From: Gammaproteobacteria bacterium
GTDB lineage: Bacteria; Pseudomonadota; Gammaproteobacteria; BMS3Bbin11
Assembly: GCA_013150915.1 (NCBI GenBank)
Contig: JAADJE010000055.1
Coordinates: 1 to 50,404 of the forward strand
Length of the DNA: 50,404 nt
Direction: 5' to 3'
The notes below the pieces were generated by a model. That model made no database searches. It was not told the origin of the DNA and worked only from the letters and a program-made list of their open reading frames with translations. Below, in pieces: positions 2,189-50,192 of this stretch (its first letter is position 1; every line of letters begins with the position of its first letter). Made by a program: the position numbers and the translations under genes.

Positions 2189-2267
2189 GTAGGAGCGCCG
2201 CCCTCGGCGCGATTTTCTAATAATTATTAATTTCAGAAGCAATCGCGCCGGGGCGGCGCGCCTACAA
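2189..2267. repeat. REP-like inverted doublet between prfA and hemA
   Basis: GTAGGAGCGCCGCCCTCGGCGCGAT (2189-2213) and ATCGCGCCGGGGCGGCGCGCCTACA (2242-2267). Confidence 0.9.
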
Positions 2268-3509: not shown

Positions 3510-3586
3510 GATGACTATGTTATTTTGTGCCTACATTTTCAGGAAAGAACCGAACATTGTCTCTTGTTAGAAGAATCTGTCAAGCC

Positions 3587-5335
3587 ATGTCATCGTTTAC
3601 ATTGCTTGCCTCGCTATTACTTGTCTCTGCCACACTGACCTCCTGTGGCAATAATTCTGTCAAAAAGTACCCTGCTGCCGTAACGGTAAAAGAACCCGTT
3701 CAGACTAAAACTAACGCAGGAACCGAACCGAAGAACCTGCCTGATGTCGAGCTCACCGCCGACCTGATGTACAAACTACTGCTGTCCGACATTGCACGCC
3801 AGCAGAACAACAATGATCTTGCGCTGGCCGCCCTGGTCGATGCGGCGACTGAAACACGCGACCCCCGACTGGCTGCCCAGGCAACCCGCCTGGCCGTAAT
3901 TTCGTCTCAGTATGGCACGGCTATTCAAATGGCCAAACTGTGGCTGGAACTGGTACCGGATGACATCGATGTCCACCAGACCATAGGAAATCTTCTCGTC
4001 GTTGAAAAACAGCCAGAACGAGCTTTGGCACATTATAGCAAAGCTCTGGCTTTAACAGACGAAAAAAACCGCAGTCTGATTCTAAAGCAAATAAGCGGTA
4101 CCCTGGTTCGTTACAGCAGCCCGCAACAGGCCCTTGAATTAATCGAAAAGCTGACAACTGAATACCCCGGCTCAGCCGATGTCGCACTGGCCCTCGCCAG
4201 CGCCGCCAGCAAGCTCAAAGAATATGACATTGCGACCACGGCTATAGAACGTGCCCTATCACTCGACCCCAACAACTACAACGCCGCTTCGTTTAAATTC
4301 GGGCTGTTGCTGCTCAATAAAAAAGCTGGCGAGGCCGAGCAGTTTGCCAACAGCTTTCTGAAAAAACATCCCACAGCCATTCTACTTCGCATGGCGCTGG
4401 CCAGGCACTATCTGGAGGCTAACAAGCTTAAACAGGCAGAAAAGGAATATCTGTTAATATACAAGCAGGATAAAACCTCCATCATTGCGCCGATGGCGCT
4501 GGCACTGATACGGATCGACAGCAATAAACTGGACGATGCAACGGTATACCTGCAAAAGGTCCTGCTGCTGCAACCAAGCAATGATCTGGCCCGCCTTTAC
4601 CTGGGCGATATCACAGCACAGCAGAAAAAACTTGATGCGGCTATCCAGTGGTACCGCTCTGTTACTGAGAAAGGGCAACTGTTTAAAGCGCGGCTGCGTC
4701 TGGTCGATGTCATCATGCAGCGAGACGGTGTCGATGCAGCTATGCGTGAACTTGAAGCCTTACACGCAGAGACCCCCAACCAACAAGTAGACATTACCCT
4801 GCTACAGCACGACCTGCTGCTAGAGGCCGGGCGTGAAAAAGAAGCACTACAGATCGTCAATACCGCCCTTGCCGATAGCCCGGATGACCTGGATCTACTT
4901 TATGCCAGAGCTATGATTGCTGCTCGTCGAGGGGATATTCCTGGCCTGGAAAAAGACTTGAAACACCTCCTTAAAATTGAACCCAACCATGCGCAGGCCC
5001 TGAATGCCTATGGTTTTACCCTGGCAGACCTGACGGATCGTTATAAAGAGGCCTATTCATTCATTAAGGCGGCACTGAAACTAAAGCCAGGCGACCCGTT
5101 TATCCTCGACAGTATGGGTTGGGTCGAATACCGGATGGGCAATTACAGTGCAGCCGAAGACTATCTACGCAAAGCACTGGCTAAACGAAATGACGCAGAG
5201 ATCGCCTCCCACCTTGTTGACGTCCTGCAGGATGCCGGTAAGGCGCGTGAAGCGAGAAAGGTCTGGACAAAAGCGAATAAGGATTTCCCGGGGAATGAGA
5301 AGTTGCAGGCGGTTGGTGAAAAATTACAAAAGTAA
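3587..5335 (+). CDS. TPR-repeat lipoprotein upstream of lolB
   Basis: Multiple TPR-like repeats; internal start at 3587 gives a signal peptide with lipobox LTSC (MSSFTLLASLLLVSATLTSC). Confidence 0.85.
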   Translation: MSSFTLLASLLLVSATLTSCGNNSVKKYPAAVTVKEPVQTKTNAGTEPKNLPDVELTADLMYKLLLSDIARQQNNNDLALAALVDAATETRDPRLAAQATRLAVISSQYGTAIQMAKLWLELVPDDIDVHQTIGNLLVVEKQPERALAHYSKALALTDEKNRSLILKQISGTLVRYSSPQQALELIEKLTTEYPGSADVALALASAASKLKEYDIATTAIERALSLDPNNYNAASFKFGLLLLNKKAGEAEQFANSFLKKHPTAILLRMALARHYLEANKLKQAEKEYLLIYKQDKTSIIAPMALALIRIDSNKLDDATVYLQKVLLLQPSNDLARLYLGDITAQQKKLDAAIQWYRSVTEKGQLFKARLRLVDVIMQRDGVDAAMRELEALHAETPNQQVDITLLQHDLLLEAGREKEALQIVNTALADSPDDLDLLYARAMIAARRGDIPGLEKDLKHLLKIEPNHAQALNAYGFTLADLTDRYKEAYSFIKAALKLKPGDPFILDSMGWVEYRMGNYSAAEDYLRKALAKRNDAEIASHLVDVLQDAGKAREARKVWTKANKDFPGNEKLQAVGEKLQK

Positions 5336-5341
5336 TTTTTC

Positions 5342-5421
5342 TGTAGGCGCGCCGCCCCGGCACGATAAAATGGCTCACCTGCCTGAAAGACCCTTATCGC
5401 GCCAAGGGCGGCGCGCCTGCA
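5342..5421. repeat. REP-like inverted doublet overlapping the lolB start
   Basis: TGTAGGCGCGCCGCCCCGGCACGAT (5342-5366) and ATCGCGCCAAGGGCGGCGCGCCTGCA (5396-5421). Confidence 0.9.
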
Positions 5422-6017
5422 TTTTGTTGCTGTTGGCTACTGCTCTGCTGTCAGCCTGCGCCGGCAAACCTGTTAAGAAAGAGCCCCCTCCCGACTGGCA
5501 GACGAAACAAGCTGCTCTCGCGAAAATCAACAGCTGGAAAATGCACGCGCGTATTGGCCTGCGCGGGACAGACCGAAACGGCAGCGCCTCTCTGATATGG
5601 CTTGAAACCCCCGAACGACGTAGTCTACGTCTGCTGAGCCCGCTAGGTGGTGGCCTGATATTGCTGCAACAGGATGCTACAGGGGCCTCTATACAGGACA
5701 GCAAGGGCAGGGTCTGGCATGGGCAAGACGCCGGGGAACTGATCTATCGCGTCACTGGCTGGCAAATTCCTGTCTCCGGTCTACGCTGGTGGTTACTGGG
5801 CCTGACCGAGCCCGGCAGCAAAGCTGAATCCACCGTAGATGCTGACCATCACCTGGTACGTGTCCGGCAAACCGGCTGGAAGGTGTCCCTGGATAAATAC
5901 ACTCGTTTCGGTGCGCACGAACTGCCGACATCGATTGTTTTTGAAACAGTGGCCGCTCGGAAGGATGCGCGGTATATTCGGGTCAAAGTTATCGTTAAGA
6001 ACTGGGTGATAGATTGA
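5370..6017 (+). CDS. lolB: Outer membrane lipoprotein LolB
   Basis: Lipoprotein signal MAHLPERPLSRQGRRACILLLLATALLSAC; WLLGL and lolB-ispE-prs context; start placed after the upstream stop codon. Confidence 0.85.
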   Translation: MAHLPERPLSRQGRRACILLLLATALLSACAGKPVKKEPPPDWQTKQAALAKINSWKMHARIGLRGTDRNGSASLIWLETPERRSLRLLSPLGGGLILLQQDATGASIQDSKGRVWHGQDAGELIYRVTGWQIPVSGLRWWLLGLTEPGSKAESTVDADHHLVRVRQTGWKVSLDKYTRFGAHELPTSIVFETVAARKDARYIRVKVIVKNWVID

Positions 6018-6064
6018 GGTTTCAAGATAAATGATGAAAGAAACTTAAAACTTGAAACAGACCA

Positions 6065-6892
6065 ATGCTAACCCTCCCCGCCCCTGCCAAGCTAAACCTG
6101 TTCCTGCATGTCACGGGACGTCGTGCTGATGGCTACCATGAATTGCAGACGGCGTTTCAGTTTCTTGATTTGCAGGATGAAATTACGCTTTCTACCCGCC
6201 CGGATAAACAAATTCGGCGTCTGACCCACTGGGCTGATGTGGCGGAAGGGGATGACCTGATGGTCAAAGCAGCGCATTGCCTCGCTGATTGTACCGGGGT
6301 GTCGACCGGGGTGGATATCGGTATTGAAAAAAATATTCCGATGGGTGCCGGACTGGGTGGCGGCAGCTCGGATGCAGCCACGGTTCTTTGTGGTTTGAAC
6401 CGCCTGTGGGGTCTCGATTTATCGAAGGATCAATTGGCCAACATCGGCCAGACACTCGGGGCTGATGTGCCGGTTTTTATTCACGGTCATGCAGCATGGG
6501 CTGAGGGAACTGGCGATAAGCTGACTTCGATAATGCCGACCGAAGATCTTTACCTGCTGATTGTGCCGCCGGTGCACGTCTCTACTGCAGAAATTTTCAG
6601 TCATCCCGCATTGACACGCGATAGCTCGCCAATCAGAATAACCGACTTTCTTGGAGGGAAAGGTCATAATGATCTCGAAGCGGTGGTCAGACAGGAATAT
6701 CCCGACGTCGATAAGGCCATGAACTGGCTGCAACAATTCGACAGGGTACGGATGACAGGAACCGGCGCGGGTGTATTTATTACGATAGAGTCGCCCGACA
6801 AAGCGGAAAAAATTGTGCAACAGGCCCCTGCCAGCTGGCAATGCTTTGTTACGCAGGGTTTGAATTCAAGCCCGCTGTATGATCAATTTTGA
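6065..6892 (+). CDS. ispE: 4-diphosphocytidyl-2-C-methyl-D-erythritol kinase
   Basis: GHMP kinase motif PMGAGLGGGSSDAATVL; N-terminal PAPAKLNLFLHVTGRRADGYHELQT. Confidence 0.97.
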   Translation: MLTLPAPAKLNLFLHVTGRRADGYHELQTAFQFLDLQDEITLSTRPDKQIRRLTHWADVAEGDDLMVKAAHCLADCTGVSTGVDIGIEKNIPMGAGLGGGSSDAATVLCGLNRLWGLDLSKDQLANIGQTLGADVPVFIHGHAAWAEGTGDKLTSIMPTEDLYLLIVPPVHVSTAEIFSHPALTRDSSPIRITDFLGGKGHNDLEAVVRQEYPDVDKAMNWLQQFDRVRMTGTGAGVFITIESPDKAEKIVQQAPASWQCFVTQGLNSSPLYDQF

Positions 6893-7947: not shown

Positions 7948-8031
7948 CTTCAGTGTTCAGTGTTCAGTGTTCAGATGGATGGTAATTTTACTGAAAACTA
8001 AAAACTAAGGATTATTTTCCATGGAGGGAAA

Positions 8032-8391
8032 ATGGCATATCAGAGTTTTGAAGAACTTGTAGTATGGAAGAAATCTTTCCGTCTTGCTGTCACCGTATAT
8101 AGAGAATTCAAACCTTGCAGAGATTATGGGCTGAAAGACCAAATAACGCGTGCAGCAGTATCGATTCCGTCTAATATTGCAGAAGGTTCAGAGCGTGAAT
8201 CTACTCGTGAATTTATTCGGTTCCTCAATTTCTCAAAAGGCTCAGCAGCAGAATTAAGAACACAGATTTATATTGCCAAAGAAATATGTCTAATTAGCCC
8301 GGCCACTGCGAATTCTATCAATCAGGAATTAAAACAAATATCTTCAATGCTTCACGGTCTTGTGAAATCACTGAAAAGTCAGCTTATCTAA
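8032..8391 (+). CDS. Four-helix-bundle protein, 23S rRNA intervening-sequence (S23) family
   Basis: FEELVVWKKSFRLAVTVY, RAAVSIPSNIAEGSER, EFIRFLNFSKGSAAELRTQ signature. Confidence 0.92.
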   Translation: MAYQSFEELVVWKKSFRLAVTVYREFKPCRDYGLKDQITRAAVSIPSNIAEGSERESTREFIRFLNFSKGSAAELRTQIYIAKEICLISPATANSINQELKQISSMLHGLVKSLKSQLI

Positions 8392-8504
8392 CAACTGAAC
8401 ACCAAAAGCTGAACACTGAAAACTATTTTTTGCTATACTCGCCGCCTTTTTCCCGGGCTGGTCGCGGTCCGGGTTGTTTAAAATGACAAAATGGGGGATT
8501 CCTG

Positions 8505-9185: not shown

Positions 9186-9767
9186 ATGACCCGTCGCATC
9201 AGTCTGATCGCTGGCCTCGGGAACCCCGGTCAGCGTTATGTCGACACACGCCACAACGTGGGCTTCTGGTTTGTCGAGGAGCTGGCAAATCGCTTTCACG
9301 GTAACTGGCGTGATGCGTCTCGTTTTAAATCACGTGTCTGTGAGATTACCATCAGCGGCGAACGTACCTGGCTGCTGGCACCACAGGATTTTATGAATCA
9401 CAGTGGCACATCCATTGCCACGTTTGCCCGCTATTACCACATTGATATCAAGCAAATTCTGGTCGCCCACGATGAGCTGGATTTATTGCCCGGCCGTGTC
9501 AAGCTCAAACTGGGCGGCGGGGCAGCCGGCCATAACGGCCTGCGCGATACCACACAGCATCTCGGCAGCCCGGATTATCTGCGCCTGCGGCTGGGTATCG
9601 GCCACCCCGGTAAACAAAGTGCGGTGGTCAATTTTGTGTTAAAACGTCCACCGGAAGCCGAGAGGGCGCTGATCCAGTCCGCAATTGAACACAGCGCTGA
9701 TCACATTGAGGATATTCTCAAGGGTGACATACAGGCCGCCATGAACGCCCTGCACACGCGTTTATAG
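9186..9767 (+). CDS. pth: Peptidyl-tRNA hydrolase
   Basis: AGLGNPGQRYVDTRHNVGFW; HDELDLLPGRVKLKLGGGAAGHNGLR. Confidence 0.97.
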   Translation: MTRRISLIAGLGNPGQRYVDTRHNVGFWFVEELANRFHGNWRDASRFKSRVCEITISGERTWLLAPQDFMNHSGTSIATFARYYHIDIKQILVAHDELDLLPGRVKLKLGGGAAGHNGLRDTTQHLGSPDYLRLRLGIGHPGKQSAVVNFVLKRPPEAERALIQSAIEHSADHIEDILKGDIQAAMNALHTRL

Positions 9768-9859
9768 TTGAAAGTTGAAAGTCAATTACGAGTGTGACCT
9801 GGCAATCTTGGTGTTTCGGGTTTTAAATGCTTTCACCTAGCTAACAGGATAGAGATTAC

Positions 9860-10951: not shown

Positions 10952-11067
10952 AAGCAGTTGAAAGTTTAAAGTTGAAAGCAAGATCAAGAACTCAAACTTT
11001 TGAGCTTTGAGCTTTCAACTTTCTTTTCCCCCTTAAATACAGTACATTCCCCTCCCCCAAATACATG

Positions 11068-15598: not shown

Positions 15599-15629
15599 TA
15601 TTCAAAAGGCCAAAACATTTACTTCATTC

Positions 15630-15774
15630 ACCACAGAGAACACGGAGGTCACAGAGCTTCCCCAGTGTTTGGTGCTCGTGATCGCAATGCGTCAAGACGT
15701 AAACATCTATAGAAAATACAGGTAAGATTGAAAAAACAAAAAATTTCCTCTGTGACCTCCGTGTCCTCTGTGGT
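15630..15774. repeat. Inverted-pair intergenic repeat (CCACAGAG..CACGGAGGTCACAGAG family)
   Basis: ACCACAGAGAACACGGAGGTCACAGAG at 15630-15656 and CTCTGTGACCTCCGTGTCCTCTGTGGT at 15748-15774. Confidence 0.9.
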
Positions 15775-15792
15775 AATAAACTTTTTTCTGTT

Positions 15793-16197
15793 TTAAATCT
15801 CCACCAGACCCTTCAGTACCATATCGGTGAAACTGACTATTCCTACTACCTGGCCATTCTCCACCACCGGTGAACGGGACAGGCCGAAGCGATCGAAAAG
15901 TCTTGCCGCATAACGGATATCCATATCCGGGTCGACGGTGACGATAGGTTTTGACATAACCTCATAGACGTTGACCCGTTCGGGGGCCCTGTCCTGTGCC
16001 AGTACCTTACGTGCAATATCAGAAATCAGGACCATGCCGTATTCATCATTTTCATCACGCTTCTCAACGATCAGTGACTTGTTCTCCAGGTATTTCATTG
16101 CCTTCATTGCCTCCTGCACACTCATCATGCCATCAACAATGTCAAATTTATGCTTCATTACATCACGAACGGTGATGCGTTTTCTTCCCGTTTTCAT
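15793..16197 (-). CDS. CBS-domain protein
   Basis: Two CBS motifs (TVRDVMKHKFDIVDGMMSVQEAMKAM; VNVYEVMSKPIVTVDPDMDIRYAARLF). Confidence 0.92.
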   Translation of the reverse strand: MKTGRKRITVRDVMKHKFDIVDGMMSVQEAMKAMKYLENKSLIVEKRDENDEYGMVLISDIARKVLAQDRAPERVNVYEVMSKPIVTVDPDMDIRYAARLFDRFGLSRSPVVENGQVVGIVSFTDMVLKGLVEI

Positions 16198-21450: not shown

Positions 21451-21596
21451 CACTACAGAGGACACGGAGATTTAAATATTTTTGGCTTTGTTTCCTCCCG
21501 TAACGCCGCGCCGATATAATCCGTCATTGCGAGGAATAAGGATACGAAGCAAGCGTTATATGATTGTTCCTCTGTGACCTCCGTGTCCTCTGTGGT
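21451..21596. repeat. Inverted-pair intergenic repeat, same family as 15630-15774
   Basis: CACTACAGAGGACACGGAG 21451-21469; CTCTGTGACCTCCGTGTCCTCTGTGGT 21570-21596 identical to the 15748-15774 copy. Confidence 0.9.
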
Positions 21597-21606
21597 AAAA
21601 AATCTT

Positions 21607-23004
21607 TTACAGCTTTTCGAGGTCAGGCACCCCGCCAGGATTGTCTTCTACCTGTGACGCCATATCACGCAGTGCGGCCTGCAGGGCTTCTTCTATCGCG
21701 GGGTGGTAAAAGGGCATGCGAAGTAGATCAAACACGGTCAAATCCTGCTGGATACACCATGCCATGAGATGCGCCAGGTGCTCACCGTTTACGCAGAACA
21801 GCGTGGCACCCAACAGCTTGCCGGTTTTTTTATCCCCGTAGATACGAATCAGGCCCCGATTTTTAGTCATTATCAGGGCACGCCCTACCGGCGCCATTTT
21901 TATCTGACCGATAACCGTTTGCTGTTGATCAAGTTCTGACCACGGACGGCCCACAGTACAGATATTGGGATCGGTAAACGTTATTGCCAGCGGTGTTTTA
22001 CGTTTGTATGCCTGGAGGCTGTCACTGGCGGCATTGATGCCGGCAATTCTACCCTCATCACCGGCTTCATGCAGGACGGCTCGATCACCGTTTACATCAC
22101 CGGCGATGAAGACAGGCTGATCCCCACACTGCATGGTATTCGGATTGTAGAGCGGCACACCCTGCGGGTTCAACTCGATACCCAGATTCTCAAGTTTCAT
22201 TCCGGCAACATTAGGGCGGCGTCCCATGCTAAGCAATAAACTATCAACCCGTACACTATTTTCACCGGCAGTGACACGCAGGCCACCATCTTCCTCTGTT
22301 ACCTCTACCGCCTGTCCTCGCCACAGCGGAAACTCTCGCGCCAGTGTTTCAATGACCGACAGGTGAATCTCCGGATCCTCAATGCCACCGATTTGTTCCG
22401 CCATATCGATACCGGTGACATCGACATCCAGCCGTGCCAGTGCCTGACCAATTTCCAGACCAATCACACCCAGACCGATAACAGCCACAGACTCGGGAAG
22501 CTCATTGAGTTCAAAAAGGGTGTCGGTGGTGATAACACGGCCAGAAAACACCTCCCAGGCCTGTGGGATGACGGGTGTCGTACCGCTGGTAATCACTACG
22601 CTACTGAAGTTGACGGTGTCTTCACCTACACGCAGCTGCCCAGGTTTGATGAATTCTGCCTGGCCATTCATTATGTGGTCTTTCAAACGTTTGTCATTAC
22701 TGGCGAAAACACGTTCAACAAACATGTCCCGAAGTTCGCGCACGAACTCCATAACTTCTTCTTTATCGACCGACAGTTGTTCGCTACCTTCTATGCCTTC
22801 ACGTTCGAGTGCTTTACGACGATGAAAATCTTCAGCCACCTGAATAAGTGCCTTAGAAGGCATGCACCCGACCCGCGAACAGGTCGTGCCCAGTTCGCCA
22901 TTCTGAACTATCAGATAGCTTTTACCCTTGCGTATTACCTGTGATAACGCATACAGACCCGCCGATCCCGCACCGATTATGACGACATCTACATTATGTT
23001 CCAT
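21607..23004 (-). CDS. FAD-dependent pyridine nucleotide-disulfide oxidoreductase (dihydrolipoamide dehydrogenase-like)
   Basis: VVIIGAGSAGLYAL; redox-active GTTCSRVGCMPSKALI; C-terminal HPAIEEAL. Confidence 0.9.
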   Translation of the reverse strand: MEHNVDVVIIGAGSAGLYALSQVIRKGKSYLIVQNGELGTTCSRVGCMPSKALIQVAEDFHRRKALEREGIEGSEQLSVDKEEVMEFVRELRDMFVERVFASNDKRLKDHIMNGQAEFIKPGQLRVGEDTVNFSSVVITSGTTPVIPQAWEVFSGRVITTDTLFELNELPESVAVIGLGVIGLEIGQALARLDVDVTGIDMAEQIGGIEDPEIHLSVIETLAREFPLWRGQAVEVTEEDGGLRVTAGENSVRVDSLLLSMGRRPNVAGMKLENLGIELNPQGVPLYNPNTMQCGDQPVFIAGDVNGDRAVLHEAGDEGRIAGINAASDSLQAYKRKTPLAITFTDPNICTVGRPWSELDQQQTVIGQIKMAPVGRALIMTKNRGLIRIYGDKKTGKLLGATLFCVNGEHLAHLMAWCIQQDLTVFDLLRMPFYHPAIEEALQAALRDMASQVEDNPGGVPDLEKL

Positions 23005-23008
23005 ATTT

Positions 23009-23160
23009 AGGGCACCCTCTTAATCCATGAATATTCATCCCAAAGCGCCCCTCTCTGCGTTAAGGATCTTCGCAATAGCAAGGCTATTACGTGCGATCCT
23101 TGCCTTGATATGAACGATTTGGAACGCAATCTGATCTATCCAGAATTAATAGAGGTACCC
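23009..23160. mobile_element. MITE-like element, copy A (inverted relative to 44874-45032)
   Basis: About 150 bp alignable to the reverse complement of 44874-45032; termini GGGcacCCTCTTAATCC / ATTAATAGAGGtaCCC. Confidence 0.8.
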
Positions 23161-23178
23161 TTTTGTCTGTTTTAAATT

Positions 23179-44873: not shown

Positions 44874-45032
44874 AGGGCCCCTCTATTAATTCCGGATAGA
44901 TCAGATTGCATTCCAAATCGTTCCTATCAGGGCAAGGATCGCACGGAATAGCTGGCTATTGTGAAAATTCTTAACACGGAGAGGGGGGATTGGGGATGGG
45001 GTGTGAATATTCATGGATTAATAGAGGCGCCT
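44874..45032. mobile_element. MITE-like element, copy B
   Basis: Reverse complement alignable to 23009-23160 across its length; termini GGGCCCCTCTATTAATTC / GGATTAATAGAGGCGCCT. Confidence 0.8.
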
Positions 45033-49454: not shown

Positions 49455-49470
49455 TGTTTCACGTGAAACA
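49455..49470. promoter_or_regulatory. parS-type ParB binding site (perfect 16-mer)
   Basis: TGTTTCACGTGAAACA. Confidence 0.9.
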
Positions 49471-49488
49471 TGTTTTATAGTTTTCTTT
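49455..49488 (+). repeat. 34-bp inverted repeat, left arm, containing parS
   Basis: TGTTTCACGTGAAACATGTTTTATAGTTTTCTTT; exact reverse complement at 50159-50192. Confidence 0.95.
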
Positions 49489-50158: not shown

Positions 50159-50192
50159 AAAGAAAACTATAAAACATGTTTCACGTGAAACA
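50159..50192 (-). repeat. 34-bp inverted repeat, right arm, containing parS
   Basis: Exact reverse complement of 49455-49488. Confidence 0.95.
50177..50192. promoter_or_regulatory. parS-type ParB binding site (perfect 16-mer)
   Basis: TGTTTCACGTGAAACA. Confidence 0.9.

Follow-up and report, generated by a model that had tools for sequence, protein, structure and literature searches.

REPs of the GTAG type are mostly intergenic and lie close behind the 3' end of an upstream ORF, where they provide TAG stop codons for neighbouring genes (PMC3733652, 2013; PMC3116915, 2011). Intragenic copies have been accepted as members of these families, for example in O. terrae and Thauera, and they either add internal segments to proteins or form N-terminal extensions that are mostly thought to be misannotated; N-terminal REPs are viewed as mostly non-coding, since translation may begin downstream of them (PMC3733652). 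Another type of palindrome found within proteins is the Rickettsia palindromic element (RPE), which the passage of PMC10969869 citing Ogata (2000, 2002) describes as about 150 bp long and as occurring at varied protein sites. Proteins with an N-terminal RPE-1 are reportedly expressed (PMC3733652). In a limited look at the literature, we found no report of an RPE serving as the n-region of a signal peptide. Intragenic REPs, REP-supplied stop codons, RPEs and N-terminal REPs are already known, and the locus described here is an unusually clear case among these in-frame palindromes.

The window analysed in this study, which spans positions 1 to 50,404 of contig JAADJE010000055.1 of a Gammaproteobacteria bacterium (assembly GCA_013150915.1), carries an inverted REP doublet between a TPR-repeat gene and lolB, with 29 nt between the two arms (Table 1). 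We propose, with a probability of roughly 0.78, that this REPIN replaced the native lolB start and n-region, and that both the start codon and the signal-peptide n-region are now encoded by the element. Like other GTAG REPs and REPINs, it shows a GTAG tag, a short palindromic arm, an inverted doublet with a short loop, dispersal of its family, and RAYT genes in the same genome (eight matches to PF01797, with two of three tested scoring above the NF047646 cut-off). Unlike them, the lolB doublet is necessarily part of a protein-coding start, and none of the RAYT genes of the source genome is flanked by the lolB-type REP family. With the intragenic GTAG REPs it shares the presence of a REP dimer in frame inside a known protein, but it differs from those described in PMC3733652 in replacing the native start and n-region, with no alternative start downstream. 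With the RPEs it shares the tolerance of a selfish palindrome in frame in host proteins; being an 80-bp GTAG doublet and not an element of about 150 bp, it is set apart from them as far as the description of RPEs in PMC10969869 extends.

Table 1. Features at the junction of the TPR-repeat gene and lolB (positions are those of the window)
Feature	Position	Strand	Remarks
TAA stop of the TPR-repeat gene lying upstream (3527-5335)	5333..5335	+	native; C-terminus resembles that of relatives
Complete REPIN, 80 bp	5342..5421	+	predicted RNA hairpin -52.4 kcal/mol, z -6.9
Proximal REP arm TGTAGGCGCGCCGCCCCGGCACGAT, GTAG-tagged, GGCGCGCC variant	5342..5366	+	6 nt past the TPR stop
REPIN loop, 29 nt, carrying ATG5370	5367..5395	+	single copy in genome and genus
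lolB, outer-membrane lipoprotein insertase	5370..6017	+	PF03550 4.2e-37, TIGR00548 1.9e-32
Likeliest lolB start codon	5370..5372	+	29 codons before the lipobox Cys
Distal REP arm ATCGCGCCAAGGGCGGCGCGCCTGCA, inverted, in frame as SRQGRRAC (probable LolB n-region)	5396..5421	+	
Remaining native signal peptide (h-region and LSA of the lipobox)	5425..5456	+	sister-species homology from 5425
Lipobox cysteine codon	5457..5459	+	

The REP family to which the lolB arms belong has the GTAG-tagged consensus TGTAGGAGCGCCGCCC(T)CGGCGCGAT. A scan by regular expression overlooked divergent arms, and a sequence model was used instead. At E ≤ 0.1, this model matched 70 sites spread over more than 20 contigs of the source genome, where the dispersed family amounts to about 66 arms, and 1 to 32 sites in each of six genomes of the same genus. 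We infer that the family is mobile. The proximal lolB arm is identical at 24 of 25 positions to the REP at 2242-2266, and the distal arm at 23 of 24 positions to the REP at 1016-1039; such identities are far beyond chance for a 2.65-Mb genome, and both arms carry the local GGCGCGCC variant. They match the family model with E values of 1.1e-5 and 4.5e-5, which are partly circular because both arms are included in the model. The GTAG (GTRG) end tag is followed by an imperfect palindrome, TGTAGGcGCGCCGCCC.CGGCaCGAT, and the tag has been mutated to GCAG in the distal arm. At the sites examined there were 16 inverted "+/-" doublets, with a loop of 28 to 32 nt in 11 of them. Even with three mismatches allowed, no second copy of the lolB loop was found in the genus. 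This loop was also considered as a relic of the native spacer, a possibility that was rejected, its similarity to the spacers of relatives being no better than that of shuffled sequences. Because 29 nt is a typical REPIN loop length, ATG5370 most likely came with the element.

The other REP sites examined are intergenic or lie at the ends of genes. A simple gene finder based on codon usage, which gave lolB a low score (17), was used solely to triage these other sites. Five of the examined arms supply the TAG stop codon of the upstream gene: the hemA stop (2262-2264, minus strand) coincides with the GTAG tag of the REP at 2242-2266, and the other four are at C20:3879, C20:6750, C59:33 and C98:5054. 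REPs near the N-termini of other genes (hisA on contig C85, a glycosyltransferase gene on C11, and ORFs on C34 and C98) were rejected as coding, the start codon following the REP in these cases. On contig C98 (L053, 1-16317), 19 REP arms are packed into the 16.3 kb surrounding polA, and some of the doublets there have near-identical loops.

The product of lolB is LolB, as both family profiles score above their curated cut-offs (127.9 bits against 23.7 for Pfam PF03550, and 112.5 bits against 59.6 for NCBIfam TIGR00548) and an LSAC lipobox is present. The gene is essential in E. coli. From ATG5370 the frame encodes MAHLPERPLSRQGRRACILLLLATALLSAC and then the rest of LolB, up to 6017; it is also open upstream as far as 5148, and ATG5370 is most likely the start, with others possible. 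By inspection, the predicted signal peptide is of the Sec/lipoprotein type, with a basic n-region (R7, R11, R14 and R15), a hydrophobic h-region (ILLLLATALL) and the lipobox. The sequence-only reading had claimed both the inverted doublet and the read-through of its distal arm as SRQGRRAC within lolB; the arms are where it had placed them, and the frame is confirmed by the two profiles.

The relatives compared were uncultured Gammaproteobacteria/Arenicellales MAGs, in six of which a lolB orthologue was found (G001, G002, G004, G005, G006 and G007); the locus was not found in the incomplete genome G003, which carries the REP family. The order of the TPR-repeat gene and lolB is kept in the relatives, and the lolB-type REPIN is absent from all six orthologues. 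In three genomes of the same genus, the lolB start that makes most sense is a TTG-AAA placed precisely 22 codons ahead of the lipobox Cys, with the n-regions MKIDTKLINA (G001), MKLKSKFTIV (G002) and MKFVPKFTIA (G006). The start is a TTG 19 codons before the Cys in G004 and a GTG 20 codons before it in G007; among the relatives examined, basic residues and a likely start occur 16 to 22 codons before the Cys. The n-region of the source LolB, MAHLPERPLSRQGRRAC, is not shared by G001, G002, G004, G006 or G007. Only six bases separate the TPR stop from the REP, which ends at 5421, and DNA of the closest relative, G002, aligns locally only from 5425 onward, three bases after that end. Because homology with G002 begins only there, the native lolB start and n-region are gone, and the insertion of the REPIN went together with the loss of the native spacer as well.

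Downstream of the REP, the only candidate starts are TTG codons 11, 10 and 8 codons before the Cys (MLLLATALLSAC and shorter), which yield no basic or charged residue and would be too short for a lipoprotein signal peptide. Since there is no usable start past the REP, the distal arm is almost certainly translated, either from ATG5370 or from an earlier start. It lies within lolB under every viable start, so that the element is not extragenic. Misannotation of the start cannot explain this REP, because the native start is gone and nothing usable lies downstream. The distal arm is stop-free in the lolB frame, where it reads SRQGRRAC (SRRGRRSY for the family consensus), and neither of its other two frames is as basic. 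The frame agrees with selection for a basic n-region, but would also be drawn by chance one time in three without selection. In the lolB-type orientation, a stop in any frame occurs in only 1 of the 66 arms examined. The earlier proposal that a REP supplies the n-region of LolB is supported by the absence of a usable start past 5421, and by the finding that none of the repeat-free orthologues compared has the same n-region.

The same reading had suggested that the palindrome also provides the initiation context of lolB, and this part was upheld only partially. ATG5370 does lie in a loop of typical length, but no Shine-Dalgarno sequence was seen before it, and in the predicted fold of the doublet RNA the AUG is at the loop edge. 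Opening of the stretch 5358-5383 is predicted to require 9.6 kcal/mol when the transcript extends to 5395, a cost that rises to 18.0 kcal/mol after synthesis of the whole distal arm. Such a hairpin should hinder initiation, not help it. With no Shine-Dalgarno sequence and a predicted fold of -52 kcal/mol, initiation would have to be weak, coupled or co-transcriptional, and the most economical view is one of low-efficiency initiation on nascent mRNA, or of coupling to translation of the TPR gene. The native TTG starts of the relatives are likewise weak. No Rfam family was found in the region 5000-6100.

The history that we propose is that: a GTAG-type REPIN may have been fixed 6 nt past the TPR stop codon; with the insertion, lolB would have lost about ten codons of its n-region, together with its native TTG start and the short spacer in front; the loop of the REPIN would have supplied the in-frame ATG; lolB would have survived by virtue of the stop-free distal arm, which would supply the basic SRQGRRAC abutting the native h-region to give a functional signal peptide; and ribosomes would initiate on the nascent mRNA while the distal arm is still to be transcribed, or through coupling with the TPR gene.

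Another possibility is that lolB has its start farther 5', at a GTG within the TPR gene (GTG5316), in which case both REP arms would be read and the signal peptide would be a long one, MKNYKSNFSVGAPPRHDKMAHLPERPLSRQGRRACILLLLATALLSAC. The frame is open, GTG5316 has an AGGCGG-like sequence a few bases in front of it, and a GTG occurs in frame at nearly the same place in G005. However, a conserved upstream GTG start was rejected, as stops intervene in G001, G002, G004, G006 and G007, and a signal peptide of 48 residues (Cys included) would be unusually long for a lipoprotein. We consider this start unlikely, and it would still lead to translation of the distal arm.

It is far less credible that the REPIN is extragenic and acts only as an RNA hairpin, either at the 3' end of the TPR mRNA or as an attenuator, with lolB starting downstream and MAHLPERPLSRQGRR remaining untranslated. 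This would match how N-terminal REPs are generally seen elsewhere (PMC3733652) and the great predicted stability of the hairpin, but a TTG 8 to 11 codons before the Cys would leave no n-region at all, unlike the basic n-regions of the relatives, which start 16 to 22 codons before it. There is also a very small chance that the insertion crippled lolB, leaving a poorly expressed or decaying gene in the source lineage, as the missing Shine-Dalgarno sequence and the strong predicted hairpin over the start might suggest. However, lolB was found as a single copy in the source genome, with its h-region, lipobox and ORF intact. For the mature part, branch values derived from pairwise NG86 distances are dN 0.060 and dS 0.311 for the source genome, and because their ratio is about 0.19, as against 0.34 on the G002 branch, lolB is not decaying and mature LolB is under purifying selection. 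A misjoin that placed a REPIN from elsewhere between the TPR gene and lolB is scarcely believable: although the assembly is fragmented (122 contigs), with short-read errors possible at palindromes, and the REPs at 1016 and 2242 almost match the arms, the loop is single copy, the flanks are unique on both sides, the gene order is that of the relatives, and the frame is open throughout the element.

Other repeats occur at this junction in the genus. A second GTAG REP family (TAGGTGCGAATTCATTCGCAC) is present in 120 copies in G002, 38 in G006 and 19 in G004, and a doublet of this family lies in the TPR-lolB spacer of both G006 and G004. In G005, a dispersed heptamer repeat, ACCGAAAACTGAAAACTG (array CCGAAAACTGAAAACTG, read as NRKLKTV), spells out the lolB n-region (L018, 1428-1546), and the near starts are limited to a GTG or a non-standard CTG, located 36 and 16 codons upstream of the Cys, respectively. 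The case for the TPR-lolB junction as a repeat-prone site across the genus is only suggestive.

Heptamer arrays of the AGTTGAA, ACTTGAA and CTGAAAA types are found in the window at 3-34, 9766-9797, 10956-10987 and 6041-6058, and they are dispersed both here and across the genus, some of them near gene starts. Other heptamer repeats near starts have been described in Beggiatoaceae (PMC4679880). A gene for a protein of the 23S rRNA intervening-sequence type (PF05635, 8032-8391) lies between inverted TTCAGTG heptamer-like repeats (7949-7992 and 8377-8420). The repeat CTCTGTGACCTCCGTGTCCTCTGTGGT is dispersed in both orientations (15627-15656, 15745-15794 and 21567-21616), and a 79-nt inverted repeat (23083-23161 and 44874-44952) is 91% complementary over a distance of 21.7 kb. 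Perfect 34-nt inverted arms at 49455-49488 and 50159-50192 each contain TGTTTCACGTGAAACA, which we take to be the parS consensus and which hints at a parAB/oriC region.

N-terminal REPs are usually dismissed as wrong start calls, but here the lolB orthologues reveal which native start was lost, with no substitute downstream. The locus is probably a clear-cut case in which a mobile-type palindrome has taken over both an initiation site and a targeting signal, and it makes it possible to test how a start codon can be used when it sits in the loop of so stable a hairpin. More tentatively, and with some doubt on our part, the lolB 5' end could be a recurrent landing site within this genus, at which unrelated dispersed repeats become start and n-region (the REPIN here, the heptamers in G005, and possibly the second REPIN family in G004). 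If this is true, mobile palindromes would find in signal-peptide n-regions a niche in which they are generally tolerated, one that would fit GC-rich distal arms that are stop-free and encode mostly neutral-to-basic peptides.
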